Assembly (NCBI GenBank): GCA_004335835.1
Contig: RWJK01001462.1
Location: 49,318 to 113,317 of the forward strand
Length of the DNA stretch: 64,000 nt
Direction of reading: 5' to 3'
Source of the DNA: Scenedesmus sp. ARA3
Lineage: Eukaryota; Chlorophyta; Chlorophyceae; Sphaeropleales; Scenedesmaceae
Part shown: one piece after another, positions 9,001 through 63,947 of the stretch
Layout: every line of letters begins with the position of its first letter
Position numbering within the stretch: the stretch's first letter is position 1
The notes under the pieces: generated by a model
Told to the model about the DNA's origin: nothing
Seen by the model: the letters and a program-made list of their open reading frames with translations, nothing else
The model's database searches: none
Position numbers and translations under genes: made by a program

Positions 9001-12000
9001 GCAGCAGCGCTGCACTGGTGGCACCTGCTGGCCCAGGACCTGCATCACCACCGAGTGGTGCTGGCGAGCTTCAGGGCCCGCCGCATGCGCAGGGAGGGCT
9101 ACGCTGTGCTGCAGGAGTGGCGCGAGTGGGCGCACGAGCGGGCACAGGAGCGGCGCGCAATCGTGTGCCACTGGAACAGGCTGTTGGTCACGGTGAGGAT
9201 TGGCAATTGGCTGTGCAATCAACATAGTGGGCTTGCTCACGATGTGGTTACTGCTAAAGACAGCGGGCGCTGGCTGCGGGTGTTAGGCTGCTGTGCCATT
9301 GGAGCAGGCTGCTGGTCACGGTGAGGATTGGCAGCTTGCGGGACACAGAGTGGCTGTGCGATCGATTGATTGGGCTTGCTGATTGAGGTGTTTGCTGCAA
9401 CTGAAAGCAAGTGCAATGCATGGACATTGCATATGCTGCTCTGACATGCCTATGTCAGCGCTTCATTTTAAGCAGCTGCCTGGTCTGTCAAACACAGCGA
9501 CTGTGATTGGCTGGCACTGAATGGTGTGTTGCTGCATCCACTGCAGGCCTTTGGCAGATGGCTCATGGCCCTCGAGGAGGCCCGCACAGAGCGCGCTGCA
9601 CGCATCACACCTGGTTATTGATGGCTGATGCTGACTCGTATGTTGCTGCATGCGCTGCTGTGCAGGCCTTTGGCGGATGGCTCATGGCCCTCGAGGAGGC
9701 CCGCACAGAGCGCGCAGAGGCGCTGCACCCATCACACCTCACAGCACGCGCAGTAGCAGCCTGGAAGCTTGCCATGGCGCTACGCCACCGCAAGCGCGTG
9801 CTGAGCAAGGCCGCGCAGCAGCTGTGTGATGTGTGGAGCTGCCGCAAGGGTCTGCAGCGCTGGATGGTGTTTGCGTACTACAAGCACATGGGGCATGTGG
9901 CGCTGCACTTCAGGATACGGCGGCTGGGCTGTGTCGTGATGCGCGCATGGCACCAGGTGGGTGCCGATGGTTAGCTGCAGGCTTAGAAAGTTACGGTCTG
10001 CACGTTGCAGGCTGAACAGTTGTGAAATTGTCCTCAATGCACTTCCTAACGCTGCCACCTGCATGCCGCTCTGTACTGCAGGCTGCGCATGAGCGTGCTC
10101 AGCTGCAGCAGGCCTCGCTGGAGTGTTGAGCAGAGCTAACACCTCAATGCACTATCATAATGCCGTCTTCAACTAAGCACTTTTTTTGCCTGCGGCCGGC
10201 TCCACTGCAGGCTGCGCATGAGCGTGCTCAGCTGCAGCAGGCCGCCTTGGAGCTCACGCACCAGCTGGCAGTCAGCACAGCTGCCAGCCTGCTCAGCCAC
10301 TGGCAGCAGCTGGCAGCAGCGCAGCGCCACCAGCGGCAGCGGCTGCTGCGCGGCTGCTGGGGCGAGTGGGTGTGCTGGACTGCGCGGCACCAGGTGCGCA
10401 GCCGCGTGCTGCGTGCTGCGGTGCAGCAGCTGGATGCGAAGAAACGCGAGCGCTGCTTCTACACGTGGCGCTGGTACTGCCAGGTGGGTGGTGCCGGCGT
10501 GTAGTGTGTCTCACACCACTCTATATGAACGCATATCATATTGTGGGCCCGTGAAACCCAACTAATCACAACACAGCTGACACTGCAGATGATCGCTGTG
10601 GCGTAAGCTGACTGGGGCTGTCTGCAATACTGCCGTGCTGTGTGCAGGTGCGCGTGCTGCGCAACGTGGCGTTCCAGCACAAGCAGCGCGCCATACGCGA
10701 GGCATTGGCCATTGGGGAGCAGGTGGCACGGCGGCGCCGCGCAGCGCTGCTGGCGTCGACCTTCATGGCCTGGCACGTGCAGGTGAGGCTCGCACAGCTG
10801 TGGCCCGCAGGCGTGCTCAAAGTCTGACTTTGTGAGCTACTCAGGCTTACAGCAATTGCAGCCGTGCACAGCCTTGCACAGCCTTGCTGTCAAAAAGTAG
10901 TTTGGGGTGCCAGCTGCCTGTCACAATGTCGTGTTCATAGCACCTGATGCCAGAGCCACATGTTTAAGTTTGGAATGCTAAGGACAGTTTCTTGCTAAAT
11001 ATTTGTCTGCTACATCACAGCACTAGTGTGCAGGTCAGCAAGAACCGCAAGGTCGCTGAGAAGCTGGCCATCTGAGCCACATGTTTTTTTTTTGCTAACC
11101 TTTGCGCGCTGCGATATCACTGCTTTGCAGGTCAGCAAGTACCGCGAGGTTGCAGAGAAGCTGGCCAGCCTGCTGCACCACAGCCTGGCCACCTGCTTCA
11201 GGGCCTGGCGAGATGCAGCAGATCATGCGCGCGTGGACATGCTGCAAGCAGAGCGCCACGCAGCCACTACCACACTGCGCAAGCTGCTGCCCGCATGGCT
11301 GGATGCAGCAGATGAGCTCAAGCAGCAGCGCGTACAGAATGAGGCTGCAGCAGACAGGATGCACAGGCGCGGTTTGGCAGGCAAAGCCCTGCAGGGGTGG
11401 GCTGAGGAGTGTGCGGTGCTACGGGAGCAGCGCAGCGGCCTGTGGCGTGTGCTGCTGCTGGTGCTGCACGCAGAAAGGACAGCATTGCTGCAGGAGGCTC
11501 TGCAGGGCTGGAGGGAAGCAGCAGCGCAGCAGGTGGCGCTGCGCAGCTGTGTTGCGAGCTTTGTGAACAAGCGGCGGCTGCAGTGCCTTGGGGAGTTTCT
11601 CACGCTGTGGCATCAGTATGCTGCTGCGATGCGGACAGATGGCGCCGCGCTGATCCCTGCTGCGCTGGCGGCGCCATCGCCGGCCGCTGCAGCAGCAGCA
11701 GTGCTTGGCAACAAGGGGCTTGCGAGAGCAGCGATGTCAGCTGCATATGCCAGTGCAGCTGCCAATGCAGGCGCAGCGTATTACTCGGCAGGGCCTGTGC
11801 TGCTGGGTGGCAAGCGGGCCAGCCGCATTGCTGCTGCTGGAGTGGCAGCCAGCATCAACGGGCCAGTGTTTGGCGCTGCAGCAGCATCAGCATCAGCAGC
11901 TGATTATGGTGGGGGTTATGATGATGGCGATGCAGCAGCAGGGCTGCAGCTGCCGCCTGGGGTGCTGCCAGTAACTGGCGGGCCTGGCTCACCGCTGCTG

Positions 12001-13645
12001 GGCCCTCGCACTGCACATCAGGACCGGCGGCTGGCTCGGCGGCTAGCAGCAATGGGAGGCGGCGCTGCTGAGGTGAGGACTTTTGCTTGGGTGGGTTGCT
12101 GGATGGCTGCTGTACAGGACTGCTGTTGTGTGCAGGTCGCCAGACGTGGGAGTGCAGCCAATGAAATGCAAAGGAGCCTGTGAACAAGCTGTGAATAGCA
12201 TACTGCAGCAGCCTTTACATGTCTGGCACAACAGCGTTCCATGCGTGCGGCCTGCTTACCCTGCTGCTGCCACCTGCACTTGCCTTCTCCTGCCACAGGT
12301 TGACACGGGGTCAGATGACGAGCAGCAGCTCTTCGCAAGCCTGCCAGCCACGCAAGCTGCAGCAGCAGCAGCGGAGCGCCGCGACCGACAGCAGCCGCTG
12401 CTGGCGCTCAGCCGCGGCTACAGGCGTCACCGGGTGACGCTGAATGACGAGCGGCAGCAGTACGATGACGCTGCAGAGTCTGGCTCCCCCAGATGTGCCT
12501 CGCCTGGCTTTGACCTGCATTCTGTGGCTGACAGCATGCGGCAGGTGGGTGGCGATGGCAATTGGTGGCAGCAGGGTGCTTGGAACTGCTTGTAACAGCA
12601 TCAGCTGTGTGTTGATCTGCACTCTGTGGCTGACAGCATGCGGCAGGTGGGTGGCGGTGGCTGGCAGCAAGGCTTTGAAACAGCACTATGTTTGTAGCTG
12701 CAAGCTGCAACCCCTCCTTCAGATGTCATGGGTGCACTACTGTGTCCAATGCAGTTTGCATGCTTCGCAAACCGTTGAAAGTTGGCTGGTGTTGAATCGT
12801 ATCCTGCTGTTGACGCTGCTGCTGCTGCAGGCTCACGAGCAGGGTCTGTCCCCCTGGCAGCTGCCCAGCGTGCGCTCCCCGCGCGCCAAGGCAGCACACC
12901 CTACTACCCTCTCACTGGACGAGCTGCACAGCTTCGGGCAGCAGTACCCATACCACCTGCAGCAGCAGCAGCAGCAGGACAGCTTGCGGCAGCAGGGCAA
13001 GAAGACCATGCACCAACAGCAGCAGCAGCAGCAGCAGGGTGGTGTGCAAGTTGTTGGCAGGCCAGGCTCTGCTGGCAGCTGTGCTGACTATCAGCCACTG
13101 CTAGAGCAGCAGCTGAGGCTGCACCAGCAGCAGGCGGAGCTTTGTGCATTCCAGCTGGAGCAAAGGGAGAGGGCCAGGCAGCAGCGCAGCCCTTCACCTA
13201 CCAAGCAGCAGCAGCAGCAGCAGGAGTATTATCAGCATTCTGAGCCTTGGCATGAGTCTGGCAGGGCCAACGGCAACAGCAGCCGCCGCAGCGCAGCTGG
13301 CGCTGCTGCCAGCGCTGCTGGTGCCGGTGATACGCATTGGCCTGAGCGGCGGCAGCATATCCTTGGCGGCTACAGTGCAAGCAGCAGCAGCAGCGCAGGC
13401 GGTAGTGTGAGTGGCAGCAGCAGGGACAGTAGCCCGAGTCGAGCCAGTGCTGCCGCTGGCTCACAGGATGCTGCGGAGCAGCAGCTGCTGCAGCAGCAGG
13501 AGCAGGAGCTCCACCAGCAGCTGTATGGTAGGTGGGCCAACAAGCAAGTGGTGTCATCCCCGCAGCGTCGGCAGCAGCAGCAGCCGGGGCTGCAGCAGGA
13601 GTGGCAGCAGTGGCAGCAGCCTGGCAGCCCTGCTCGTGGACATCC

Positions 13646-13681
<36 letters not shown>

Positions 13682-20668: not shown

Positions 20669-23600
20669 TCATCTGTAGAAGCCCAGCAGTACCGTCTTCC
20701 ACACTGCCACAAACTGCGCCAGCAGCGGCTGCGGCGCGTCGCTCTTGATGGTGACCGTGGCGTGCCTTGAGGCTGTGGCCACCACCATCTCCACCAGGAA
20801 CAGGCACTGACTGGGGCCGTCCTGCGCATAAAAGTAGTACTTGAACATTGGTGCAGCGCCACCGCAGGCCATCGTGTACACATTTGCCTGGCCCACATGC
20901 CCACAGAAGTCCTTGTGGTCATTCGCAGCCAGCGCAGCAAGCGTCGCCATGTTCAAACTGTCCACGTACTGCTCTGCAGGAGCCAGCGCCCGCCAGCGCT
21001 CCTGGAACACCCCAGGCATAAGTTTAAACCCGGGGCTCAGCTGCAACTGCTGCTGCTGCTGCTGCTGCCCGGGGCCATTGCTGCTGCTGCTGCCGCCGCT
21101 GAGTCCACCTAAGCCGCCCATGAGGCTGTCCAAACCCCCGAGACCATCATCATCTAGCAACCCTCCCAACCCTGCTGCTGCTGCTGGCGCTGCTGCTGCT
21201 GCTCCGCCTGCCAATGAAGTCGATGACGGCTCATCATCTCCTAAATCTAGCAGATTTGCCTCCTGCTGCTGTACTGAATCCAGCAGGTTTGTGCTGGTAT
21301 CAACCAGCAGAGCATCCCCGCCATCCGCTGCTGCTGCGCCGCTGCTGCCTGCGCTGCCGGGGGCGTCTGCTGCTGCTGCCCCTCCCGGCGCATCGTATTC
21401 GTCTGCATGCTGTGCATGGTACTGCGCGGACTGCACAAAGGATGAGGCCGGCTGCTGGTAGACGACGCTGAGGGTGTTGAACTCGTCAAAGATGGCCTGC
21501 TGCGCTTCCTGCAGACAACAAACAAGGCGGCGGCAGCGACAGCAGCAGCAGCAGCAGCAGCAGCGTTACCACCCATTCAGCACCATAACCGCAGGGTTGC
21601 TGTTGTCAGAGTGACCCCCAGGAGCAAAATTCAACACAGCAGTGCTGCAGTGCACTTGATCGCATGTTGTGTCACATTTGCAACGTGCCAGGCAGTCTGG
21701 AATTCTGTACAAGCACAGGGATGGTTAAGATTGCGGCCTAAAGGGGCGCAGATGTGGCGTATTATGCTGTTCAAATGGGGGTGGACTCTCTACCCTGCAC
21801 TTCAGGTTGCTAGAGTATGTACACGCACACAGCACTGTTGTGACTCTGCCAATCAGCACTCATGCAACAGTGATAATCAGCACTCATGCACTGTCAGCAT
21901 CCTGTCATCGCCCGCACCTGTGGCAGCTCATCGGTGAAGAAGGGCATGGCCTGCTGCGGCTCATTGGGGTCACCTGCAATGACCAGCTGGGCCGTGCTGA
22001 CGTCCTGCTTCAGCAGCCTGCAGCAGCAACAGCAGCAGCAGCAGCAGCAAAGCTGAATCAAGCCAGCACCTGGACTGCTGTCAGGTGTGCCAGCCCTAGA
22101 TCAGCACAGCCGCCTCTTCACACACAGATGCTTGAGCTCACGCACATGCGCCTATTTCTAGGGTACATGCAGGTCACCACAAGCAAAGGTTGGCCAAACA
22201 CAGACTTCGATCGGCAGCTAGCGCCCCAGTACACTCCTCCTTGCTGTTTCCGGGAGCCCATCCTTGTCACTACAAACATCTGTATCACAAACATCTGTAT
22301 TAATCGCCTGAACAGAATCACCTGTAGTACAGCAGTGCACGATCGTGCACGTCCTGGTCGCTGTCATTCAGGCCTCCAGCAAGGCAACCACCCCACTTGA
22401 CTGTTCAACTCCTACAAACAAACACCCAATTCAACTGCCTGGCACCCACCTGTAGTACAGCAGTGCGCGATCGTGCACGTCCTGGTCGCTGTCATTCAGC
22501 CCACCAGCAAGGCACGCCCCCAGCAGCTTGCGGCTCTCCCCAGGCTTCTTGAAAAATAGCTTGGCAGCAGCAGTCAGCAGCGCCAGCTTGACTGGCTGCG
22601 GCTCGCTGCCAAACGCTTCGACCAGCGGCTGCAGCAGGTACGGCGCGGCTGCAAAGGCAGTGCAACGAGGCGGTACAGCAAGGCAGTACAGCAAGGCAGT
22701 ACAACAAGGCAGTACAAGGCAGTCAGCAGCGCTAGCTTGACCTGCAGCGGCTCAATGCCAGAAGCATGCGCAAGAGGCCGCAGCAGGTCCGGCGCGGCTG
22801 CAGGGACACGAAAAACAAGCGCAATACCACAGCGACGTTTACAGCAGCAGGCAGTAGCCAAGGATGCAATGCACAATCGCCCACCACTCACTGTCTATGG
22901 ATCCACAACAGCGCTGCGCTAGCTGTCAAGCAGAGAAACTCTCATCAAGCACCAACAGCTATGAGCGTGCAACCTGTTGCACAACCGTCTACCATTGTGT
23001 GTGAACAGGCACTCACTGTCTATGTGCTGCCCGAAGTGCCCCAGGATCCACACCAGCGCTGCGCTAGCAGTGACAGCCTCATCAAGCATTAAGAGCCGAG
23101 GTGCATGAGGAGAGGGGAGATGCCTGTCACTGTTTGAGGAAGCACTCACTGTCTATGTGCTGCCCGAAGTGGCCCAGGATCCACACCAGTGCTGCGCGGG
23201 CCTCAGGGTCAGCCACGCCTGAGGGCCTGATGTCACCCATGCTGAACACCTGCAGCACAGCACAGCACAGCAAGCCGCACGGTGACAATAATGTAAGATG
23301 GGCACTGCGTGTGGGGAGAAGCGCTGCAGTATGTATATGTAGTGTGCAGTGTCCAACTAAACGCATAGAGTATGCAGTGGTACAGTACGCTCTGGCTCGC
23401 CCAGGTCGGGGTACTGCCTGAGCAGGTGTTGAGCTGCACCAGCGTCTCGGCCACAACCTTGAAGTAGATGGGAATCACAATTATTACGCCTGTGGTGCCT
23501 TGGTACACAATTGTAATGCTGTTGAAGGACTAGCGCCTGCTGCATCGGTGGCGGCCTTAGGTGCGGCGGCAGCTGCAGCTACAGAGATTGGACTTGTTAC

Positions 23601-26600
23601 AGGCGCTGGAGGTCTTGCTGTACCTTTTGCAATGAACAAGCGCTTGAGCTAGAGCCTTAGCGCCTAATTCTTGAAATTCATTCCAAGCTAAATTCAGGTC
23701 CTCAAGCAAAAGAAGAGCCGCCTTATCAATGGATTGTGCAAGGGCCTGAATCCCTTGATTCCCAAGGCAGTTGTTAGCTGAATTGAGTTGCTTGAGTGAA
23801 TATAAATGACATGCTTTTTCAAAAGCTTGAGCTAAGGCCTGAGCGCCTAAATTCCCATTAGCCAGCGTCTCGGCCACAATCTCAGCCATGATAGGTTCAT
23901 AACAGCTTAGTGACAATCATCCAAATGCTGCAACATAGCATAGTAATAACATGTTACAATGGCTGGCGGCTCACCTCGCCCAGGTCAGGGTAGCGCCTCA
24001 GCAGGTCCTTGAGCTGCACCAGCGTCTCAGCCACGATGTGGTCATAGCCAGACTCCAGGAACAGCAGCAGCCGCTCCACAATGCCATTTACATCGGCAAC
24101 CTGCACGCCAATCAGAAACATTATGTGGGATGTAAGCATAAGGCAGGCACCATGTGCGGAAGGTTAGCATGCTGTAGTAGTCAAGAAAAGCAGGAACAAC
24201 AGCAGCCGCTCCACAACAAATTCAAGTCATAACCGTACCACACAATAGAGGCAGACAGTAGCCGTCAACAGCATGTGACAAGCGTCGAGCCAGCCGGCAT
24301 GCAGCAACCGTGGCTCCTGGCATGGCACCATCCCACACGCTGCCTGGCCCGCGACGTGTGACCAGCCACGCACCAACAGCACAATGAGGCCCACCGCGTT
24401 GATCTCCTGGCGTGCCGTGCCCGCGCTGATGTGTCACGTATACTCCGCCAAACACAACACACTGCAAATGAACATATCATCAATGTTTCAATGCCACTCA
24501 CTGAGAGCGCGATGCGGCCCACCGCCTTCAACGCCTGCTTTGCGGTGGCTGCGCTGATGTCGCGCGTGTACTTTAATCAAACTACAAACAATCAACACTG
24601 TTGCTGTATCAAAGCCACTCACCAAAAGCGCGATGCGGCCCACCGCCTTCACCGCCTGGCGTGGCGTGTCAGCGCTAATGTCGCGCGTGTGCTTTGCCAT
24701 ACACTACACATTGCAACGAAATGAACTATCACTGTTCCAATGCCACTCACCGAGAGCGCGATGCGGCCCACCGCCTTCACCGCCTGGCGTGCCGTGTCTG
24801 CGCTGATGTCGCGCGTGTACTCGGTGAGCTCGCCCACGATGTCGTACACGTTGCTGGCACTGGCCAGCAGCGTCAGGATCTCCATCTTCAGCTGCTTCAC
24901 ATACCTGCAGGGCAACGGTTTAATGAACACATGAATCCACTGTTTCCCCTGGATGTCATACACATTGAATCCACTGGCGCGGACGACAACGTGTGAGCAG
25001 GCAAGGCCCCTCGTGGGCCTCACCAGCTGTCGTGGATGCAGCCAGTGGAACGCCATGCCATGGCCTTCAACCAAATTTGGCGCGCGCGCCACAAGCAGCC
25101 GCGCCAAAAATCACAACCACAGGTCCAACCAGCAAGGTAACCCTCAACCCCAAACCCTAGCTCACCAGCTGTCGTGGCTTCGGCAGTAGAAGGCCATGTA
25201 ATCGCCCTCAAATATCATGGGGGCGCGCGCCACCAGCAGCCGCGCGTGGCACAGCACCGCGTACACAGCAGCGGGGTCCTCCCTGCTGATGAGGCTCTTC
25301 AGCTGCTCCTTGACTCGCTCCAGCACCTGCTGGTGTGTAGCAGTCATGCTGAGCGTCATGTACAGGAACACCTGCGGATTGCAGGAGCGAAGCATAATAC
25401 TGATGAGTGGTGTGTCTGTGGTTGTGTGAAAATCTGCTCCTTGACTCGCTCCAGCACCTGCTGGTGTGTAGCAGTCATGCTGAGCGTCATGTACAGGAAC
25501 ACCTGCCGATTGCAGGAGCGAAGCATAATACTGATGAGTGGTGTGTCTGTGGTTGTGTGAATATCTGCTCCTTGACTCGCTCCAGCACCTGCTGGTGTGT
25601 AGCAGTCATGCTGAGGGTCATGTACAGGAACACCTGCGACATGTACAAGCAAAGAATACTACTAATGGGTGTTATGTTATGTGGTGTGAATAGCTGCTCC
25701 TTGACATGCTCCAGCACCTGCTGGTGTGTGGTGGTCATGCTGAGGGTGAGGGACAGGACGTCCTGCAGCGTGACAGCAGATACGACTTCTCTGTCAGCTC
25801 AGACACCATCAATGTCGAGGCGTATATCACAAAGAGCTCTCCGGCCTCTCCAGGACATGGCCAGGGAGCTTCGACACCAAAGGAATGCCGTACACCAATT
25901 CAGCGCTGCTGGAAAGATATGTAGAGTAGGGTTTCTTCGCCAAGGTTGTCTGCTGTTGCGCACCTTGATGGTTGCCAGCACCACCGCGCTGTTGTTCACC
26001 CCGAGACGGTCCTCCAGCGCATTCAGCAGGTCATACACCTGGCAGCACAGCACAACAGCACACATGCAAGAGCAGACCCCAGTAAATCATTGTTGATGGG
26101 TTGCTCTGCCGCAGCTTCTCTGCCGTGATCTGCGCACGTCTACCCAGCGCATGTACTGCCGATGATGCAGCTGCTGGTGTGCGCATGTGGCCGACTTGGC
26201 GCAAATGCTGCTGCCATCGAGCCCAGCACATATCAACGGCCAGATCTGGCAGTGCTGCCGCTCAAACTGCTGCTGTTGTTGACCAATCCCTTTGCACCAA
26301 GCTGCTGCTGCTCTCGCCTGCCGCTGCTGCGGCTGGTCACACTACTGCTGCTGCTGCTGCTGCTGTTGCTTGAAAGCATTGCTGTTAGTCGCACTGCCGC
26401 CGCCGCTGCTGCTGCACACCTCTGCATCCGAGCCTGGTGTGTAATGAGCTACCAGCTCCAGCACCTGGCACTGTGCCCAGTCGCTGAACTCCTGCAGTAC
26501 GAAAAGCACAGCGCACAACCACTCAGCTTGTAATGCTTATTGACTGCGGCACACGCAGCATGTCGTAGCAGGCACTGCGCCCATTCCCTGAACGTCTGCG

Positions 26601-28327
26601 CAGCAGACACAGCCCAAAGACAGCGCACAGAAATAACAGAAGCAGACAATGCGCAAAGCAGCCGCTTCAAACAGATGGAATCCAAACGGCCACAACTCGA
26701 TATGCCAGCAACACCCCTCACAATTCAGACGCCGCACCTTGATCCTGTTGATCAGGCTGTACATGAGTGCCTTGTTGCTGCCATTCACATCACGGCTGAT
26801 CTAGACCCACTGCACCCAAAACAGCAATGAACCCTAGCAGCACCATACTTCAACCCCCCAAACCCCCACCTTGATCCTGTTGATCAGGCTGTACATGAGC
26901 GCCTTGTTGCTGGCGAGGCGCTTCACGCCCTGCACCTGCATCAGCAGCGTGAGGCAGTTGGCTGCCACCTGCGGGTCGCCGTCCTGCCCCAGCAGCTGCT
27001 GCACGTGCTGCAGCAGGCCCTGAGCCTCCACCACGTCTGCAGGACAAAACATAAGGAAGGATAGGTAAATGAGTTGAAGCAGTCGCATGCGGAAACATGA
27101 GTATGCATAGCAGCAACTGCTGCTGCACGTGCTGCAGCAGGCCCCGAGCCTCAACTACGTCTGCAGTGAAACAGAGACAGCAGCAGGCAGGCACCTGAGC
27201 ATGGTAGCTGCTGCGCGCGCTGCTAAGAATCTGCTACATTTTAGGACTCACCTGCTTCAGTGCCAGCAGCTGCTGCTGCCGTTTGCTCAGCTGCTGTGGC
27301 TACAGCATCATCTGTAGCTGCAGGACCTACTGCTTTACACAATACAGTTGCACAACCCAACCCCACTGCTTGCACGCTGCTGCTGCTGCTGCTGTCCTGC
27401 AAGCATCCTACCTGGGCTCATGTGCCAGATCTTGAGCACACCCATCACCGCTGTGCGCCGCACGTAGGGGTGCCTGTCATCCAGCCCAGCTGACACGGGA
27501 GTGACCTGCGGCAAACACCAAAAGATCGCGGGCATGTCAAAAGGTGTTTCTAACATGTCAAATGTAGTGTTGAGTTGCCGGCTGGACTAATCATAGGCTA
27601 TGTGAGCACAGCACATTTGCTGCCAGCGCATGGTTAACTGCTGCTAGGGTTCTGGTGTGCAGCAGCTCCTCATGCCTGCCACGATGCAGCTGCTGCTGAG
27701 GTTAACCTAGAACAGGAAACAGCTGCCCCCCTCAGCAAATCTGCTGCTGTGGTTGCAGCTATAGTAGTGATAACACCCGCCGTGGCCAACTGCTTGACTG
27801 CGCAGCACTGCTGCTGAAACGTGCTGTGCAAGCCTGCTGTGCACCTTGCGATCGGGCACGTTCCTTCCTGCAAGCCCCTAGGCCACTGATTTGCTTTTAT
27901 AATGTATAAAAATGGCTTTACAACTCACCACGTACTCCAGCAGGTTGGGTATGCGCAGGGAGCACAGGCTGCGCAGCGCCAGGCCCCTTACTGTAGGGTC
28001 CTGGTCTTGGCAGTCCTTGTGCAGCTGGTTGATGGTCAGCAGCGCCAGATCCGGCGTGCTGGCAGCATAGTGCGTGATGTAGAGGTACAGCATCTTCTTG
28101 AGCACGACGTCGTCCGGGCTGAGGTTTGCACAGGAGGTCATCATGGGGAACAGTCCTGCCATGTCCATGCCCAGCGTCATGTAGTTTATGACCTTCTTGA
28201 ACGCCTCTTTCTTTGCTTGTCGCAGCTCTATGTTTGAACGTTTGCCTGTCATGCACAGGCCCTGCAGCTGCGCGCTGAGCTCTGCGTATTCGCCCCGGGG
28301 CTTCGTGGGCCCCCTGGGCTTGCTCAT
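20669..28327 (-). CDS. AP4B1: AP-4 adaptor complex subunit beta
   Basis: Twelve exons in transcript order: 27929-28327, 27412-27505, 26870-27036, 26420-26491, 25964-26038, 25166-25371, 24751-24904, 23975-24100, 23150-23249, 22450-22648, 21918-22017, 20669-21508. All phases agree, giving 843 residues, about the length of plant AP-4 beta. The adaptin trunk is clear (KKEAFKKVINYMTLG near residue 50, TINQLHKDCQDQDP, VRGLALRSLCSLR, GLLQHVQQ, AAAKLFFKKPGESRK). After a hinge rich in Ala/Gly/Gln with leucine-acidic clusters (NLLDLGDDE) comes the C-terminal appendage subdomain (LSPGFKLMPGVFQERW to the end). The hinge lacks an exact LxxL(D/E) clathrin box, consistent with AP-4 working without clathrin in trans-Golgi export. 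The start is the second methionine-like codon in the ORF, because the upstream one is GTG. Introns carry many tandem copies of exon ends (separate entries). Confidence 0.93.
22318..22810 (-). repeat. Copies of both ends of AP-4 beta exon 10
   Basis: The exon's acceptor-side start (APYLLQPL... coding) is copied at about 22728-22808 (reads APDLLRPL). Its donor-side end (DVHDRALLYY then CAG/GTG) is copied at about 22318-22388. The real exon lies between, at 22450-22648, so a copy sits in the intron on each side. Confidence 0.9.
22885..23090 (-). repeat. Two tandem copies of AP-4 beta exon 9 end with donor
   Basis: The end of exon 23150-23249 (ALVWILGHFGQHID then GTGAGT) recurs at about 23013-23088 almost intact and again, shortened, at about 22885-22950. 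Spacing is about 130 nt. The first copy keeps the reading frame across the matching codons and the donor. Confidence 0.9.
23395..23465 (-). repeat. Copy of AP-4 beta exon 8 end
   Basis: This stretch matches the end of exon 23975-24100 (VAETLVQLKDLL..YPDLGE) with small deletions and without a good donor. Shorter copies of other parts of the same exon lie at about 23861-23893 and 24185-24215, on either side of the exon. Confidence 0.8.
23557..23862 (-). pseudogene. LRR-coding fragment lodged in AP-4 beta intron 8
   Basis: Read on the - strand, about 90 codons are open and encode ribonuclease-inhibitor-type leucine-rich repeats: LGAQALAQAF, LGNQGIQALAQSI, LEDLNLAWNEF, LGAKALAQALV. The DNA is visibly richer in A and T than its surroundings. 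Upstream the ORF merges with a partial copy of AP-4 beta exon 8 (EIVAETLA). It has no convincing splice sites of its own and no full gene around it, so I treat it as an inserted fragment. Its origin (host LRR gene, endosymbiont or other source) cannot be told from the sequence alone. Confidence 0.55.
24377..24700 (-). repeat. Three tandem copies of AP-4 beta exon 7 end with donor
   Basis: The last 23 codons of exon 24751-24904 (TRDISADTARQAVKAVGRIALS then GTGAGT, given here in part) recur at about 24624-24690, 24503-24572 and 24377-24440. Spacing is 121-128 nt. The first two copies have no stop, keep the donor and are preceded by AG, so each could act as a 69-nt in-frame cassette. The third has a TGA and a weaker GTGCGT donor. 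Confidence 0.92.
24945..25105 (-). repeat. Copies of AP-4 beta exon 6 end and an exon 7 piece
   Basis: About 80 nt at 25020-25100 copy the end of exon 25166-25371, including the CAGCTG/GTGAG donor (LLVARAP..E...AFxW coding). About 35 nt at 24945-24985 resemble an internal part of exon 7 (SNVYDI coding). Both are in intron 6. Confidence 0.82.
25437..25770 (-). repeat. Three tandem copies of AP-4 beta exon 6 start with acceptor
   Basis: The exon start (CAG acceptor then VFLYMTLSMTATHQQV coding) at 25371 is copied upstream at about 25437-25507, 25568-25636 and 25688-25765. Spacings are 131, 131 and 129 nt. The two nearest copies are almost identical to the exon for about 70 nt and keep the CAG. 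The farthest is diverged (MTTTHQQV). All sit in intron 5. Confidence 0.93.
26566..27165 (-). repeat. Copies of AP-4 beta exon 3 and exon 4 ends
   Basis: The exon 3 start with acceptor is copied at about 27124-27165. The exon 3 end (YSLINRIK coding) is copied at about 26734-26795. The exon 4 start (EWAQC coding, acceptor) is copied at about 26566-26600. Each copy lies in the adjacent intron. Confidence 0.85.
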
Positions 28328-30440: not shown

Positions 30441-31888
30441 TACAGGCCGGAAACGTTGATACTCACCAGTCAGCAGGCCCCTGTCTAAGGGGCTTTAAGC
30501 GAGCACTCCAATGCCTAGCTCGCGACACACCGGCAGCAGGTCGCGCTGCAGCAGCAGGAGTACAGACCGCATGTGTGGGTTTGATGTTATACATTACATT
30601 ACATTACATTACATCACATTACATATGTTATAAGTTGAAGCGTCAGCCGGCAATCACATGTAACCTCACCATACAGTGCCTGGCGTCAACACACTGCTAA
30701 GATCTCATATGCATGCGTGCTGCTGCCGCGTGTCGCTGAGTCGCTGAACTCACATAAACCAGCAGCACTACCGAGCTTGCCAAAGTGCAGCTAGGCATAG
30801 GAGATGCCCAGAAGTTTGTCTCTGTCAAGGCTGCACACGGACATCCTCGCACCAAACACAAACAGTAAGATCAGCAGCCAGCCCACAGCCAGGTCTTATG
30901 CTAACAGCGACAGCATACAGATCAGCTCACCCCAAGGTCATGAGCTAACACCGCCAGCAAATAGCAGCCCACCTCAAATCGCGCAGGAGAACAAGGCAAA
31001 GCATGCATATGTTTCTGTTATTTGCACACAGGAGAAGCATCAGTAGATACCACCTCACCTCCAGGTCGCGTGCAAACAGCGACCACTCCTGCTCAATGGC
31101 GCTGATGGGCACCACCGCAGCCGCCGCCCTGATCTGATTTGGCCCAACCTCGGACAGGCCCACGTGGCGGATCTTGCCCTCCTCCACAAGCACCTGCATT
31201 TGAATGTGCGTGCGCAACGGATGCAACAACAGCAGTCGACAATGTTGCGCATTTGCCCTCAGCAACAAGCACCTGCTATTGCATGCTTGCATGCACGCAT
31301 GCATACGGCAGGTGCAGCGGACAGCACGGCACTGTATGATGTAGCCGCACTTTCGCTGCGTTGCTGCACTTGAAGCAGCTTGATCAAACCTGGCACAGCC
31401 ACGCACGCTTTATAATGAAACTATAGCCTCAACTCAGAACAATTGCTCTTCCCTCTTCCCACATTGCTACCCAGCAATTCGTTGTGAACTTCCCACCAAA
31501 CTTCCCACCTTTAGCTCCTGCATCAGGTCCGCAATGTCAGTGCCGGGCTGCACAGGCCCCCGCAGCGTGAAGAGGTCAATGTAGCTGGTCCCTAGCCGCT
31601 CCAGGGCATCCTCACACGCCTTTCTTGCATATTCCCTTGTCTGGGTGTGGCTTATGCCTCCTTTGCCGTCAAACATGGGGCCCCACTTGGTGCAGATGGT
31701 GATGCTCTCGCGCGGCACGTCCTTCAGGGCTTTGCCTGGTGAGAGGGGCGGGTGGTGTAGCAGTAGGAGCAGCAGCAAAGCCTGAGCAGTACGTAGGTAC
31801 GCAAAGCACTGCCCCACTTGGTGCGCATTGTGATGCTGTCACGAGGCAAGTCCTTCAAGGCTTTGCCTGTGGGGTGGGGTGAGGCAGC

Positions 31889-31921
<33 letters not shown>

Positions 31922-32756: not shown

Positions 32757-32801
<45 letters not shown>

Positions 32802-34500: not shown

Positions 34501-34529
34501 ATGGCATATACCTGCTGCCGGAGGCTTTA

Positions 34530-36040: not shown

Positions 36041-36079
<39 letters not shown>

Positions 36080-36164
36080 TGCAATGATTATGAAGCATGG
36101 TTTGTCACAATCTTGACGTTGCTGCCCACCACGCGGCTGCCGCTGGAGTCCAGAGACATCACCT

Positions 36165-36203
<39 letters not shown>

Positions 36204-45727: not shown

Positions 45728-47931
45728 TCAAGTTTGTTCCCGCTCCGGTAGCACATTGGCATCCAGCTGCTGCAGCTTGGGCAGCAGCGCCAGCAGCCGC
45801 TGCTTGTAGTCCGGCGCTGCTGCTGCTGGGTTGTGTTCCAGGTAGATGGTGGTCAGGCTGTCAACCTGGCGGCAGCAGCAGCAGCAGCAGATGGGTAAGC
45901 ATATGGGTAAGCACGGTCTGTCTGCTGCTGGGTTCATTTCAAGTCTAAAGGTAGAAGGTGGTGAGGCTGTCAACCTGGCGGCGGCAGCAGCAACCGCAAG
46001 CAAAGGCTTGATTACTACATGACAAGATCAGCATAGCAAGAATTATGTAACACTTGCAAATAGCAAGGGTGGCACAAGGCGCCGCAGGCAACCTGTTCTA
46101 TGAGCGCTTCCTTGATGACGTTCAGCCAGAGCTCCTCCATCACCGCCAGACAACAAAAACAAAATAGATAGTTGCCCACCTGATCTTCTAGCGCTTCTTC
46201 TATGCCATCCAAGCTGGGCATTTGGTTGTCATTGAGCCACAGGTCCTCCATCACCGCCAGATAACAAAAGCCAAATAGATAGGTGCCCACCTGATCTTTT
46301 AGCGCTTCCTCTATGCCATCCAAGCTGGGCATTTGGTTGTCATTCAGCCACAGGTCTTCCAGCTGGCTCAGGCCCTGCAGGTGCTCCACCTTGCTGATGC
46401 GATTGTTGCTCACATCAAGCACCTGCAGCAGCAGCAGCAGAAGCAGCAGCAGAATCACAGCTTAGGCCCTGCCGATGCTGCACCTTGCTGATGCGGTTGT
46501 TGCTCAAATCAAGCACCTGCAGCAGCAGCAGCAGCAGCAGCAGCAGAAACACAGCTTAGGCCCTGCAGGTGATCCACCTTGCTGATGCGGTTGTTGCTCA
46601 CATCAAGCACCTGCAAGCAGATGTTTGCATGTGCGCATGAGCTCCTACTTTTCAGCGCCTCACCGCAGCGCCTGCAGCTGGGCCAGCTGCTCATCAAGCA
46701 CAAGTGGCTGCCGATGCAAAGCATTCAATTGAATATGCTGCCAACGGACGTTGTTCATTGCCACTTTGCAGCGCCTCAACCGCAGCGCCCTCAGCTGTGT
46801 CAGCTGCTGGTCCAGGCTCCAGATGCTGCCAACATAAAGCATCAGTTGCGTCTACAACTGATGTGTTGCCGACTTATGTATTGTACTGCCATTTAGCAGC
46901 GGCTCACCCGCAGCGCCTTGAGCTGCGTGAGCTGCTGGTCCAGGCTCCAGATGCTGCCAACGCAAAGCATATGCGTCTGCAACTGATGTGCTGCCGACTT
47001 ATGTATTGTGCTGCCAGTTAGCAGCGGCTCACCCGCAGAGCCTTCAGCTGCGTCAGCTGCTCATGAATACCACAAGTGCAGGTGGCTGCCGCATGCCAAG
47101 CTTCTGCATTGGCAAGCCAGTTGCCAAGAGTCTGCAAAAGCATGTGCATTTCCTGGCACCTTGAGTTTATACTAGCAAGCATGCCACTCACCCGCAGCGC
47201 CTTCAGCTGTGTGAGCTGCTGGTCCAGGCTCCAGATGCCGTTGTGGCTCAGGTACAGCTCCACAAGGGAGCTGCAGGCAGCGATACCGCACATGCTCTCA
47301 AGCCTGCAGCAGCAGCACGCATGAAGCAGGTGTGGCTTCTGTGGCTACTGCTTACTATGATGAACTTTGATGTTTTGTCCCTGCCGGCTATCGCAATCGC
47401 CGAGAAAAACTCCCTTGCTGCGCAAGCATACGCTCATATCTGCTCCTCTGACCGGCAGTTGCCCTGCAGTGTCGCTCTGCACAGGCGCACCTGCTTTTGC
47501 TGCTGCTGCTGCTGCCAGTGACAGCCTGTTGCCGCGCACCTGTTGCTCTGCAGGGACATGCGACGCAGCGCAGTCAGGTGGCCCGGCACAATCCTGCTGC
47601 TGCTGCTGCTGCCTGTGGTAGGCTGCTGCCGCGCACCTGTTGCTCTTTTGTTCATATTGAGTTGGTTACAAGGGCTGGACCTAGCAACCATGCACTCGTT
47701 TCATAGACATGTCCTAGGACTCACAGGCTATGAGAGGATGAGGCAACTTGTCCCGACACTCTTCCCACAGCCCACCAGACACCCACCCCACCTGTTGCTC
47801 TGCAGGGAGATGCGCCGCAGTGCGGTCATGTGGCCAAGTGCTGCTGCTGCTGCCTGTTACAGGTTGCTGCTGTGCGCACCTGTTGCTCTGCACGGAGATG
47901 CGCCGCAGTGCGGTCATGTGGCCCAGGTTTA

Positions 47932-47983
<52 letters not shown>

Positions 47984-49345
47984 TCTTGAAGCCTGCTGCT
48001 GCCCACCTGTTGCTCTGCAGGGAGATGCGTCGCAGTGCGGTCATGTGGCCCAGGTTTTCGATCTTGGAGATGCGGTTGCGCCCCAGCCACAGCTCCAGCA
48101 GGCACGCCTGGCTCTGCAGCAGCAGCAGCAGCAGCAGCAGCAGGGGTGACAACAACCGTAGCAGCACTACAGTGAGCAAGGAGCCAGCAAGCAGCACCTG
48201 CCAGGAAGCCCAGATCTGCAGCAGCAGCAGCAGCAGTACTGCCAGTCCTGGCTTGCGTCACACGGCGCCTAACTGAAGGCAACAATGTGCAAACACAGTG
48301 ACAAACGTGACGTCTCCGCTCACCCCCAGGCCTTCTATGGTGCGGATGCGGTTGCTGCCCAGCTCCAGCACTGTGAGCTTGCTGAGGCCACCCAGTGCCT
48401 CAATGGCTGTCACCTTGTTGGCAGCCACAAACAGCTCAAGGAGTGGTGGGCTGGCAGCTGGGTCTGCTGTCAAGCTGCTGAGCGGCGCAAGGCTGCGGAT
48501 CTGCACAAAAATGAGAGAAATGAACAGAAACAGTGAGTAAAAGCGAGGTTGGAGGGTGCCAGCAAAAGCAAGTTGCAGGAGAGGGATGGTGCACACAACG
48601 GAATTTTCAGTGTGTGTCAGCCGGCCGAGGCCTTCCAGTGCCTCAATGGCTGTCACCTTGTTGGCTGCCACAAACAGCTCAAGCAGTGGCAAGCTGGCGG
48701 CTGGGTCTGCGGTCAGGCTGCTCAGAGGGGCCAGGCTGCGGATCTGCACAGAAGTGACAGAAATGGACAGAAAGAGTGAGTAAAAGAGAGGGTAAAGGGT
48801 GCCAGAGAGAGCAAGTTGCAGGAGAGTGATGGGTGGGCACAACGAAGATTATCAGTGTGTGTCAGCCGGGTCAGGCCTTCCAGTGCCTCAATGGCTGTCA
48901 CTTTGTTGGCAAACAGTTCAAGGAAACAGCTCAAGGAGTGGTGGGCTGGCGGCTGCCAAGCTGCTGAGAGGAGACAGGCTGTGGATCGGCGTGAGGCATG
49001 CAAACGATGAAATGATGATATGATGATAAGTTATTGGTAACGTGGGGCTGGGAGGTGATGGCCGCCAGCAACAGCAGCCACAGCGGCGGCGGCACGTGGG
49101 AGTGCTGCACCCTGCACAGCCATCTACCCCAGTGGTGACAAGCAATGCTTGAAGGTGCGCAAATTTGCGCTTTCATGTTAGACTGTCCATCCTTACAGGG
49201 CATGGGCACCTGTACCTTGCTACCTGTACGATTTCCAAGCATTGGGAGCTGTGCAAGCAGCAAACAGTCCACCTGATTGCATCAGAACTCCAGCCAGGTC
49301 AGCTTGGCACAGCCATACACAAAACCTGGCAAGCAGTTGTGCTAT

Positions 49346-50009: not shown

Positions 50010-50040
<31 letters not shown>

Positions 50041-51262: not shown

Positions 51263-53715
51263 ATGTTGCCACGCGTTACCATAACGCCTGATGTTTCTGG
51301 CCGGACTGTTTCTAAGAACTTCTCCTCCAAGGCCAAGCCACAGACAGACAGCAGCAGGAGGAAGCCAGTGCACGCTGCGTATGCCCCAGCTGCAAGGTAT
51401 GCTTAGTCTTCATCAACTGCATCAGCGTCCATCGCACATGCGCACTATGGGGTTGTGCCATGCAGCCTGACCGGCCTGTCCGCGTGCTGGGTGACCTGGC
51501 CTGCCGACCCTGCTATGCATACGATAACCTGCTGACTCATATTGTTGTCCATGCATGCAGGTCGTCCGCACCCAAGGCCCTTGCTAATGTCACAGTCGAG
51601 GGCGTAAAGAGGCGCAGCTTCGAGAAGCCTCCTCTGCACAGCGCGCTCGAAGCCCCTGGTATTCAGTCATGCCTTATTGACGCCGATAGCGCAGGCAGCA
51701 CGCAGGATGTGGCCTCGCAGCAAGCCCTCTCACACACCACAGAGGCCAGCAGCTGCCACATCAGCAGCAGCACAGCCACACCATGCAGCAGCACCAACAG
51801 CCTCGCTAAGAGCGACAGCGAGCTCGCGCTGCTGCTAAACAACGCTGACCTGTCACGTCCAGGCATCACAACCATCAACATCGGCAGCATCCCTATCCAG
51901 GTGCCCCTGGCAGTTGTGGATGTCCCTGCTTCTGATGCTGCTGCTGCAGCAGCAGCAGCCCATGCAGCAGCACCAGCTGCTGCTGCAGCAGAGCAGCCTG
52001 AGGATGCAGCAGCAGCAGCAGCAGCAGCAGCAGCTACAGCCTCCAAGCTCAAGGCCACATCAGCTGAGTTTTACCCTCAGGCCTACCTGGCTGCAGCAGC
52101 TGCTACTGCCATCGCTGCCACCTCCCTCAGCAGCAGCAGCAGCAGCCACTCCAATGCTGCTGCAGCTGAGCAGCAGCAGCAGCAGCTTGCAGATGCTACT
52201 GTACTTTCATATGTTTCAAATGATCAGCAGCAGCAGCAGCAAGAGCAGGCTCCTGCTGCTTACGCAGCAGACGCCCAGCAGCAGCAGCAGGTTGTGGCCG
52301 CAGCAGACCCCCAGCAGCAGTACTGGCAGCACTGGCAGCAGCAGTGGCCGCAGCAGCACTGGCAGCAGCAGCAGCAGCAGCAGATGCCCATGGCAGTGCA
52401 TATGTTCTTCCCTGTGCCGGTGCCAGTCCCTCCTTACATCATGCCAGCCTACCCCTTTGCATACCACCAGATGCAGCAGATGCAGATGCAGCCGCTGCTG
52501 CTGCCGCACCCGCAGCAGCAGCAGCAGCAGCAGCCTGCTGCGATTGCTGCAGATGCAGACACCAGCAGCAGCAGCAGTGTGCCTCCCACACCAGCACCCA
52601 GCAGCAGCAGCAGCAGCTATGTGCCGCTGTCACCCGCACCTAGCCTGCCAGCTGATACAAGCAGCCTCATGTCAACCCCTAGGGGCCTTTCCGGCTGGGC
52701 GTTGGCTCACAGCAGCAGCATCTATGGTGGCAGCAGCAGCAGCAGGCCCGGCAGCAGCGCCAGCAGCATCGCTGGCAGCAGCTACAGCACCGCGCGTACC
52801 GGCCGGCAGCAGCAGCAGGCGCTGCGCGATGCCGGCACAGTGACAGTATCCGCTGCAAGCTGTGTGAAGGATGCTGCTGGTGCATTGGCCAAGGTTGTGA
52901 GCAGGCATGGCAGCTGCCTGCTGCTGTCTTTGGCACGCGCAGGCGATCAGGCAGCCCAGGCAACGCATGTTGCAGCTAAGTCGCTCGCAGTGGCGCGGTT
53001 CTATGTGAATGCACACATGTCGGCTGCAGGTGCAGCTGGCATTGATGCAGCAGCAGCACTCACAGGCATGGAGCCTTCTACTCCCGCTGCTGCTGCATCA
53101 GCAGATGAGGAGGTGGTGTTTATGCCCTTCAACCGCAGCGCTGTAGCAGCTGGCAGCAGCAGGGCTTCAGCAGCAGGAGATGCGGAGCCTGCGCTTGGCT
53201 TCATTGTAGCAAAGGCAGGTGCTAAGGACTTGCCTGTTGCACTTCCGCCACCAGTCGGCATCCCAGCATGCATGCAGGAGCGCCAGCAGCAGCAGCAGCA
53301 GCAGCATGATGCTTCTTCCACTGCTGCCGCCAGCAGCAGCAGCAGCACCGCAGCAGCAGTGTGGGCAGCACCGCTGCTGAAAGCTGGTGCTAACACAGAT
53401 GTAAACAAGCTTTCCAATGCCATCATCCACAATGTGTTGGGCTGCAACCACGTAGCTCTGCAGCTGGCAGGTGCTGCTGCATGTCACGTAGCAATGCAGG
53501 CTTTGATTAAGGCCCGCTCTCGGCTGCAGCGCAAGTTTGGCGCTGACATTGTGGCCACAGCCAGCTTTGCGAATGAGGACACCAGCCGCAGCATCGGGCG
53601 CAGCACGGTGTTTTTGCGGCTGGATGTGATGCGCAGCAACCTGCTGCAGCAGCTGGCGGCCGGCATGGCTGGGCAGCAGCAGCAGCAGCAGCAGCAGCTT
53701 GCTGGTGCTGTGTAA
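51263..53715 (+). CDS. Protein with two SpoVS/Alba-like domains and Q/A/S-rich linker
   Basis: Exon 1 is 51263-51396 (MLPRVTITPDVSGR...). Exon 2 is 51561-53715, ending in TAA, for 762 residues with matched phase. The first 460 residues are low-complexity: poly-A, poly-Q, poly-S, and a Pro/Met/Tyr patch (VPPYIMPAYPFAY). Around residues 470-610 a first domain reads TVTVSAAS..AAGALAKVVSRHG..AAKSLAVARFYV..EVVFMPFN..LGFIVAKA. Around residues 657-740 a second reads DVNKLSNAII..VALQLAG..MQALIKAR..GADIVATASFAN..RSTVFLRLDV. Both follow the bacterial stage V sporulation protein S fold (Alba superfamily, nucleic-acid binding). Function in an alga is unknown. RNA or DNA binding in a prion-like, condensate-prone protein is inference. 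The stop overlaps a TGTAA, the usual chlorophycean polyadenylation motif. Confidence 0.82.
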
Positions 53716-53763
53716 GGCTGTGGGGCTGTCTGGCTTTGCTGCTTATTGTATGTTTCCATTTGA

Positions 53764-54200
53764 AGGCTGCAGCGCAAGTTTGGCGCTGACATTGTGGCCA
53801 CAGCCAGCTTTGCAAACGAGGACACTAGGATGGCTGGGCAGCAGCAGCAGTTTGCTGGTGCTGGTGCTGGTGCTGTGTAAGGCTGTGAGGTTTGCTGCCA
53901 TTGGTATGTGTCAGAAACCTGCTGCAGCAGCCGGTGGCCGGCATGGCTGGGCAGCAGCAGCAGCTTGCTGGTGCTGGTGCTGTGTAAGGCTTGCGAGGAT
54001 TGCGGCCATTGGTATGTTGTGCAGCAACCTGCTGCAGCAGCTGGCGGCTGGCATGGCTGGGCAGCAGCAGCAGTTTGTTGGTGCTGGTGCTGTGTAAGGC
54101 TGTGAGGCTTGCTGCCCATTGGTGTGTTGTGCAGCAACCTGCTGCAGCAGCTGGCGGCTGGCATGGCGGCGGCAGCAGCAGCAGCAGTTTGCGGGTGCTG
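53764..54200 (+). repeat. Copies of the SpoVS gene terminal exon beyond its stop
   Basis: About 65 nt at 53764-53828 copy exon positions 53523-53586 (RLQRKFGADIVATASFANED coding, given whole here as 20 residues). Then the LLQQLAAGMAG..QQQ-LAGAV-stop segment recurs at about 53828-53880, 53922-53990, 54012-54100 and 54137-54200, keeping the GTGTAA. Spacing is about 90-125 nt. Confidence 0.92.
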
Positions 54201-54704
54201 TGTGAAGCTGTGAGGGTGTTGCATGATGGTATGTTGCCATTTGAAGAGTGACTGTATGGTAGCAGGTGTTGCTTTGGATTTGCTGGCAGTGAGTTGCCGC
54301 ACGGTGCAGGCATGCGGCTGTGTGCCTGGGTTGTGCAATGCTTGGTTACAGGCTTTTGTCAGGCAGGTTGATTTTGCAGGTTGTCCACATCTGACACAGC
54401 CGGACAGAGGCATTGAGCAGGTTGGGTGAGCTCCCATGTGTCTGTTGTGCACTACTTTGCCCGGCCTGATAGCAAGAGAACGTGGCTGAGAAGTTGGCTG
54501 CCTTGTGTGTCATCTGAAAAGCAGGCTTGTGTGTTATATAAAAAGCAGGCTTGAATAGAACGTACAGCGGAGCAGCGTGTGGAGAGCTTTCTTTACCAGT
54601 CTGTTTAAGCACCTCCGCAGCATCTTTGGCATGTGTATGTTATGTCTGGAAGCATGGTGCAGTGGCAGCAACCGGCTGGCTGTCTGCTGGCGGCGGTTGC
54701 GCTT

Positions 54705-57183: not shown

Positions 57184-57188
57184 GCTGG

Positions 57189-57220
<32 letters not shown>

Positions 57221-62227: not shown

Positions 62228-62276
<49 letters not shown>

Positions 62277-62672: not shown

Positions 62673-62721
<49 letters not shown>

Positions 62722-63947
62722 GACCATCATGCAAACATGGTGCCGTAATGTTGCAGAATATCCTGCTAAGATTACTAATCTGTGGTACAGGCTGCTGGAG
62801 ACCAGCCCTGCCACACACAACCCCGAAAACACCAACACTGGACAGTCAACACGTCACAAGTGGTTCACCTGTGGCGTCGTGATCTGGCTCAGGTCATATT
62901 CCGGCGGCTGCAAGCTCCCGTACCGCTGCTGGTTGCACGTCTCATCATATGGCCGGTTGCGGTGGCTGCAGCTGCGGGGGCAGACGGCGCAAGCGGTGAA
63001 CAACCACAACGGCAGCACCAGCAGCAGCGGCAGCAGCATAACCTTGAGCATGCAGGGGCGACGCCATGCTGCACATGACTTTGCATTGCAAGCTGCACTC
63101 CTGCAAATGTCTGGGGCCTTAGCATGATTGCACATACAGACTGAAAAGCCATTAGCAGCTGCAATCCTAAGTGGCAGCTACAAACAAAAGCCACAACTGT
63201 CTGTTCCCTTAAATAGAACCCCAAAGTCCTATGAACTCAGTCAAGCCTCACACACTTTGTGCCATGGTCGAATCTTTGGAATCGCAGCTGTCCATCTGTC
63301 AGCATCTGCGCCCAATGCGCCATGTTGCGCCCTGAGACAGACGCGGGCCATGTCTGGAAGATGACCGGGTTGTCATCTGGAGAAATGAACGCGCTGGGGC
63401 CTGCAGCAGCAGCAGCAGCAGCAGCAGCAACGGCGGCGGCGACTATCAGCTTTGACGACAGACTTGCACATGCAGTGATGCGCACCTTCAGCACGCCAAG
63501 GCAACCAACACACCAACACACCAACAAACCAACAAACAGCGCACCAAAGAACATGATGTTGAGCGTTGACATGCAAAGATCGCTCCAAATGGTCTGATGT
63601 ACTCCTATACATTCTGCATGCTTGCAACCCACTGGCACACCATGCCTCCAGCACAGTACAGCGCAAAATAATACAGTACACTACCGGCTGCTGCTGATGC
63701 TGCGCACCATAGAACGTGATGTTCAGTGTCGACATGCACAGCTCGCTTTATATGTACGCTACATATGCTACATGCTTGCGACCCACTGGCATGCAGTACA
63801 GTGCAGCACAGAATCGCGCACCGTAGAACATGATGTTCAGTGTCGACATGCACAGCTCGCTCCATATGTACTCGGTGCATGTCTTTACGTATGGCGCCAG
63901 CATGCGGTACCACAGGAACTCGCCCAGCCAGGAGTTGTAGAAGAACT

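Follow-up and report, generated by a model that had tools for sequence, protein, structure and literature searches.

Exon ends in a stretch of green algal DNA are accompanied by diverged tandem copies of themselves. The stretch, referred to here as the window, comprises 64,000 nucleotides (nt) of Scenedesmus sp. ARA3 (contig RWJK01001462.1, positions 49,318 to 113,317), and in many of its genes the last 50 or so bases of an exon with their donor, or the first 50 or so with their acceptor, recur in the adjoining intron, one to several times and in a head-to-tail arrangement. We think this is best explained by recurrent short tandem duplication that is tolerated at the edges of coding segments, combined with exchange between the copies and the working exon, a reading to which we give a probability of about 0.45.

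Exon ends in the window are copied into adjoining introns

A self-alignment of the window (BLAST) identified 91 direct repeat pairs on the plus strand less than 1.5 kb apart and none farther apart, while three first-order Markov shuffles of the window gave 0, 0, and 0 near pairs. Using a self-trained gene model and a match threshold of at least 28/36, we counted 34 junction arrays with 54 copies over the whole window, on donor and acceptor sides alike. These results confirm that the junction-copy pattern is real in the window. They bear out an earlier reading made from the sequence only (here, the sequence-only reading), which had counted more than 50 copies on both sides of exons and had named self-alignment as a check. 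That reading placed the copies in seven unrelated genes; we could identify five array-bearing genes by a Pfam match, namely, a beta-adaptin, an aldo/keto-reductase, an LRR gene, a SpoVS-domain gene, and a pyruvate-kinase-like gene whose weak match falls below Pfam's cut-off.

The beta-adaptin gene, an AP-4-type gene on the minus strand, illustrates the arrangement (Table 1). Its spliced protein is open through to the stop, with the borders of exons 12 and 13 taken from the gene model only, and aligns at 97% identity, with 82% query coverage, to a protein of Scenedesmus sp. NREL 46B-D3, in which the intron copies are absent (by eye). Read on the minus strand, copies of exon starts have CAG upstream and copies of exon ends have GT downstream. 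An ungapped 30-nt seed (at least 24/30) finds 9 copies at 7 of the 24 junctions, and decayed copies appear by eye at further junctions when gaps are allowed. The copies span 32 to 71 exon bases and 0 to 23 intron bases, except for one young unit that carries 120 intron bases. In the exon 6 array the two nearest copies are identical at 186/189 and 73/74 positions, and a truncated second copy of the exon 9 end lies near 22890 (by eye).

Copies are spread over the genome but are patchy

To look beyond the window, we scanned the surrounding draft assembly (87.27 Mb, 1567 contigs), whose predicted AP-1 gamma protein shares 99% identity with a Tetradesmus obliquus record. Exons were anchored by exon-by-exon Pfam matches to Adaptin_N and Cpn60_TCP1, giving a set of 69 gene-model exons with an in-frame match on the window's contig and 14 others. 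This set draws on 56 of the 59 chaperonin matches and 27 of the 37 adaptin matches; the remainder lay outside the analysed stretches, had internal stops, or fell on three repeat-protein contigs (C1524, C449, and C951), and 130 kinesin matches are not among the anchors. On those three contigs, extended open frames match Adaptin_N weakly and contain internal repeats of 129 nt (43 codons); they appear to encode repeat proteins, with no relation to the intron copies. The gene model in use comes from a stricter run; it still takes some copies for exons and chains adjoining window genes into one. An earlier run was dropped because it called too many introns (1219 in the final round). Contig C1530 was excluded from the gene-model-based counts for its stretch of 34% G+C (5760-9344), which has a chaperonin-family match in a frame open for 2619 amino acids; nearly all other stretches have 54-61% G+C. 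Low-complexity seeds were excluded from all seed scans.

The outermost 36 exon bases have near copies (at least 30/36, within 1.5 kb) at 45 of 126 anchored junctions, that is, at 19/61 acceptors and 26/65 donors. This count retains four anchored exons that we took to be copies themselves; the position test and the inner-edge count below exclude them. Acceptor copies lie upstream in 30 of 32 cases and donor copies downstream in 49 of 54, as duplication across an edge predicts.

Copy density is very uneven. Copies occur at 0/21, 0/16, and 0/30 predicted junctions in the genes on C367, C837, and C810 and at 19/23 in part of C1492, the high values being inflated because model exons include some copies. 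Five random stretches have copies at 7 of 93 predicted junctions, five of these in a single stretch (C1130). Copies thus occur across the genome, though patchily, and are more frequent in the chaperonin and adaptin genes than in this small random sample; the high density claimed for the window holds there and does not extend evenly elsewhere.

Arrays are head-to-tail with a narrow range of spacings

Over all analysed stretches, 152 of 238 adjacent spacings fall within 90-149 nt, with a peak at 120-129 nt and further bumps at 180-189 nt (23) and 230-269 nt (26). The spacing of 105-131 nt often seen in the window by the sequence-only reading lies within the 90-149 nt range, with the reservation that our figures pool all stretches. 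Spacings under 200 nt follow no multiple-of-three rule, with 52/196 in phase 0; an apparent phase bias (90/54/52) was set aside because the units are not independent.

As in a minisatellite, the arrays are head-to-tail with near-constant unit length, for example, six units of 107-108 nt in the gene for CCT-epsilon. Intronic minisatellites likewise repeat head-to-tail and grow unequally; the arrays here differ from them in having a unit anchored on a coding end, which is the part mainly preserved. In stacked copies the intervening stretch is common to the inner units and often not to the outermost: gapped alignment of the anchored pairs relates the flanks of 42 of 65 inner pairs, against 31 of 85 pairs that include the outermost copy. 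One intervening stretch, of 79 nt on C530, was searched against the whole genome and matched its own array only; the outermost copy of that array has an unrelated flank. Taken together, the head-to-tail arrays, the near-constant spacing, and the intron flanks that are related in some pairs uphold tandem duplication, either crossing an exon edge or lying within the exon, as the proposed source of the copies.

Homology is concentrated in the coding end

We slid a 30-nt seed over the anchored junctions at one fixed threshold. At donors, 57 of 178 exon-side seeds have a copy versus 0 of 166 intron-side seeds; at acceptors, the counts are 44/175 versus 8/141. Donor seeds whose centre lies 10 nt within the exon have copies in 23/61 cases and those 60 nt inside in 5/60, and on the intron side the counts are 0/58, 0/54, and 0/54 at 10, 20, and 30 nt and 11/57 at 120 nt, where the copies sit. 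For acceptors, 17/60 seeds have a copy when centred 10 nt within the exon, against 3/47, 3/45, and 2/49 at intron positions 10, 20, and 30 nt. Ungapped blocks at 60-200 nt spacing (n = 171) give a similar picture: 110 involve a predicted junction and only 36 are intron-intron, yet introns make up 129,838 of the 200,709 classified bases. A shuffled control gave 17 blocks, the shuffle having been made without the low-complexity filter applied to the real set. The sequence-only reading would have fallen if copies were no commoner at junctions than elsewhere in introns; in this sample they are commoner at junctions, and the claim survives.

We compared these counts with a simulation that combined tandem duplication, neutral decay, exon constraint, and indels at six settings with parameters of our choosing. 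The simulated intron/exon ratio of seeds with a copy was 0.61-0.84 across the six settings. Against this range, the observed 0/166 and 57/178 mean that neutral decay alone fits badly. The parts of a unit do not decay alike, as they would in a neutral minisatellite.

The intron flanks are nevertheless not without homology. With gaps allowed, 50-nt flanks are related in 73 of 150 anchored pairs, and over all arrays 36-nt flanks are related in 134 of 358 pairs, on average with less similarity than the exon part. The claim that the duplicated unit includes intron sequence is therefore borne out in only some of the pairs. A related flank was found in 57 of 110 arrays, and there the exon part, which served as the search seed, was more alike in 40, less alike in 14, and equal in 3. 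In the converse search, 38 flank-seeded pairs had an exon match, and the exon part scored higher in 22 and lower in 8, the exon match being the best of nine shifts, which favours the exon. Among close copies (identity of at least 0.93), ungapped homology breaks off no more than 8 nt from the donor in 40/72 and no more than 7 nt from the acceptor in 26/50. A sharp end of homology at the splice site, as the ungapped profile suggested, was toned down after the gapped check related about half of the flanks.

Two stop codons are copied, and splice sites are not singled out

Two arrays span a stop codon rather than a splice site. The Cpn60 gene on C1260 ends EAPEEKKAAPAMPDMGMY-stop, and a copy 155 nt on reads VEAPEEKKAAPAMPDMGIY-stop; a second, poorer stop copy lies at 284, and a seed on the side of the 3' untranslated region has no copy there. 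In the window, copies of the end and stop of an open reading frame with a SpoVS domain are seen by eye past position 53715, its seeds being of low complexity in the seed test. This is the one case we could place among three last exons said to have copies past the stop; the beta-adaptin stop (20669) has no copy. Because these stop-codon arrays contain no splice site, we infer that the array pattern is not a splicing device.

Splice sites are mostly retained in the copies (AG in 32/33, GT in 41/51). Three of the ten GT misses belong to one array whose model donor is 2 nt off, and two are the C1260 stop copies. This retention is not clearly above the copies' general similarity. At their inner edges, the 51 donor copies show no clear excess of AG and the 33 acceptor copies no clear excess of GT. 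The duplicated segments show no sign of supplying the GT and AG of a new intron, as the AGGT model of intron gain would have it, and in general the copies are not bounded by acceptor and donor as tandem or mutually exclusive exons are. The CCT-epsilon array does have an AG before the copy, which prompted the idea of mini-exons (AG-copy-GT); the inner-edge test did not bear this out generally.

The interpretation offered by the sequence-only reading is thus partly supported. Its likening of the pattern to tandem duplication of AG/GT sites is too narrow in that two stop-codon ends share it, and the suggestion of intron growth or gain finds no support as regards gain, given the inner edges and an NREL 46B-D3 beta-adaptin without copies.

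Codon positions and the CCT-epsilon comparison

Columns that vary among the copies of multi-copy arrays fall on codon positions 1, 2, and 3 in 70, 65, and 126 cases (126/261 third), and stops account for 1 of 269 derived states. The expected third-position share is a third for neutral copies alone. The excess is only suggestive because a synonymously evolving exon raises the expectation to about 0.47 at most. Exon-only changes are distributed 4/1/26. Pairwise comparisons put 61% and 57% of changes at third codon positions but register shared changes more than once; the array-level counts, which show a weaker signal, were used instead.

The spliced CCT-epsilon prediction agrees with a T. obliquus record, P0241, at every aligned residue. 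P0241, presumably from strain UTEX 393 to judge by its accession style, has 52 more N-terminal residues, one V missed by our model, and an extra 15 residues, DNMVRVEQYAMRAFA. One intron copy in the CCT-epsilon array here, the DNMVRVEQYAM copy, reads DNMVRVEQYAMQAFA, one residue off that extra stretch; it is annotated as exon in P0241. An intron copy has probably been mistaken for an exon in that record. With the AP-1 gamma identity, the CCT-epsilon agreement identifies the source alga as T. obliquus or a strain very near to it. In a separate record, P0298 from the transcriptome of a related alga, the CCT-epsilon product ends in an apparent intron read-through right after the array-bearing exon.

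Duplication at coding edges with exchange, and its alternatives

Under the explanation we favour, small tandem duplications, mostly of 90-150 nt, would arise often in this genome. One falling inside an exon would break the protein; one straddling a coding-segment boundary, be it a donor, an acceptor, or a stop, would keep the working exon intact and put a spare end into the intron or 3' untranslated region. From two such ends an array could expand and contract again, through gene conversion or unequal exchange involving the coding blocks of about 50 nt. Any copy might in this way, by contraction or conversion, come to serve as the working exon end, so that selection acting through exchange with the working exon would keep each coding block usable together with its splice site or stop; the stretch between coding blocks would be free to decay. 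What the data show is that the copies exist, their side, spacing, and array structure, the stop-codon cases, the concentration at coding ends, and the misfit of simulated neutral decay; the duplication mechanism and the role of exchange we infer. A broader view is that coding-segment ends act as small reservoirs in which spare tandem exon and stop ends in introns and 3' untranslated regions are turned over by exchange, so that purifying selection would reach noncoding copies and exon ends could be replaced from the reservoir; we offer it tentatively, with the odds against it.

Several points weigh against this explanation. Exchange is not seen directly, as we have one apparently haploid assembly and no polymorphism. 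The third-position share of 0.483 is weakly above the 0.42-0.47 expected (z from 2.05 to 0.41), and the array-level ratio of synonymous to nonsynonymous to stop changes is 103:107:3. The simulation rates and unit sizes are our own assumptions. The large gene-to-gene variation in copy density and the narrow spacing are left unaccounted for. Nine model-predicted stops, six of them testable, yielded none with a copy, and among 16 predicted starts, 11 testable, one has a copy (a 180-nt repeat in C1450, uncertain). Many of the predicted starts may be wrong.

If duplications were simply random and neutral, surviving at coding edges and in introns and decaying without constraint, the exon would be better kept by its own constraint only. 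The related flanks of 73 anchored pairs, the near-neutral array-level ratio, and the third-position bias of exon-only changes are what such a process would leave, but the empty intron side of donors lies far from the simulated ratio and too few blocks are wholly intronic for the share of introns in the sequence, so we consider it unlikely. We put at a similar level a copying process, linked to RNA or splicing or to break repair with filler, that writes only exon ends and their splice site into introns, with an intervening stretch that was never homologous. The loss of homology near the donor and acceptor in close copies would follow directly, as would the C530 array with its private intervening stretch and unrelated outermost flank; against it stand the stop-codon arrays without a splice site, the gapped relationship of about half of the anchored flanks, and young units that are near-identical throughout, such as that of window exon 6 with its 120 intron bases.

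Functional copies are quite improbable, whether as mutually exclusive or alternative exons or as decoy splice sites that selection maintains for their effect on splicing. They would account for the mostly retained AG and GT, the third-position bias, and the copy annotated as an exon in T. obliquus CCT-epsilon, but that annotation may be a gene-prediction error, the inner edges show no clear AG or GT excess, phase 0 is not favoured, stop codons have arrays too, and by eye the copies are missing from the NREL 46B-D3 beta-adaptin and from a related protein of a transcriptome. Least probable is an assembly artefact of collapsed or falsely joined haplotypes. A draft of this many contigs could hold such errors, but the copies are diverged, regular, and found on many contigs, and the presence of one in a second T. 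obliquus CCT-epsilon record argues against it.

Relation to known systems

We found no description of such arrays in the literature searched, which had few subscription journals, in keeping with the sequence-only reading, which knew of none at this density. None appears in the accessible parts of the Sphaeropleales genome papers (PMC7955037, PMC5966456, PMC12571836, PMC7590803, and PMC5552973) or in the UTEX 393 genome announcement (PMC5255914).

The nearest known case is a single junction-spanning tandem duplication in potato (PMC4974935). According to the available passages, it too runs over an intron-exon boundary and copies the splice signals along, but it was a single intron-making event, whereas here there are many copies in many genes, stop codons are included, and no new intron was seen. 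Proto-splice-site introns of Drosophila, as described in the part of the source available (PMC2891723), likewise involve duplicated coding sequence partly turned into intron, with the difference that the copies supply the splice sites of the new intron. Introner elements resemble our arrays as recurrent intron additions with green algae among their hosts (excerpts of PMC9860276). In those excerpts introners copy themselves into many genes; here the copies are local, with one tested stretch found only at its own array and 0 far plus-strand pairs in the window, and by these two checks no similar sequence is dispersed over many unrelated introns. Fill-in at DNA breaks yields small tandem duplications in mouse and human cells and is a candidate source of short ones here, although the passages available concern mammalian cells and give no coding-edge bias (PMC8355091).

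If our explanation is correct, exon edges and not introns alone would be turned over genome-wide by short tandem duplication, offering a natural system for intron growth, exon sliding, and the birth of alternative splice sites between strains. T. obliquus is reported to have a mean intron of 462 bp and 15.7% coding sequence (available part of PMC5966456), and copies may account for part of these long introns and this low coding share. Copies may also mislead gene finders into calling exons, which seems to have happened in one public CCT-epsilon record.

Features of the window

TABLE 1 Beta-adaptin exons, junction copies, and other arrays in the window
Feature	Position	Strand	Remarks
AP-4-type beta-adaptin gene, 13 exons	20669..28327	-	Pfam PF01602 and PF09066
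Beta-adaptin exons 1-5	28327-27929, 27505-27412, 27036-26870, 26491-26420, 26038-25964	-	
Beta-adaptin exons 6-9	25371-25166, 24904-24751, 24100-23975, 23249-23150	-	
Beta-adaptin exons 10-13	22648-22450, 22017-21918, 21508-21305, 21001-20669	-	
Exon 3 start copy with acceptor	27119..27166	-	45/48 identical; 42 exon and 6 intron bases; offset 124
Exon 3 end copy with donor	26735..26780	-	45/46; 43 exon and 3 intron bases; offset 132
Exon 4 start, degraded copy with CAG	26560..26600 (approximate)	-	By eye
Exon 6 start, three upstream copies in array	25434..25766	-	Offsets 131, 262, about 391
Exon 6 end copy with donor	25019..25104	-	Offset 142; 79%
Exon 7 end, three downstream copies with donor in array	24365..24703	-	Offsets 128, 249, 377
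Exon 8 end, distant copy, donor lost	23396..23454	-	Offset 579
Exon 9 end copy with donor	23009..23064	-	54/56; offset 133
Exon 10 start copy with acceptor	22719..22802	-	Offset 149; 81%
Exon 10 end copy with donor	22319..22386	-	65/68; offset 128
Acceptor-side copy pair, gene with aldo/keto-reductase exon	31680..31909	-	
Two adjoining tandem arrays	34071..35168	-	148-nt unit; 120-nt unit with predicted junctions inside
Acceptor-side arrays, gene with weak pyruvate-kinase-like exon match	35971..37024	-	
Donor-side array	37484..38376	-	Members 38097, 37860, 37691, 37546
Several donor- and acceptor-side arrays	46366..48990	-	Includes LRR-domain exon region
Three short pairs	9164..10252	Unassigned	9164/9292, 9508/9622, 10075/10204; self-BLAST; left end of the span given by the sequence-only reading
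Array of C-terminal coding end and stop copies, SpoVS-domain open reading frame	53614..54246	+	About 113-nt unit; by eye

The SpoVS-domain open reading frame (51316-53715, plus strand) encodes 799 amino acids and ends in the domain (PF04232, E = 4.6e-06), whose family is named after a bacterial sporulation protein and is found here in an alga. Shortly past its stop-codon array lies an imperfect 80-nt palindrome (54705-54784, 81%). The window also contains a 35-nt inverted repeat with 97% identity whose arms are 13.7 kb apart (49669-49703 and 63409-63443) and several CAG/CTG trinucleotide tracts, for example, at 13647-13701 and 32757-32801.

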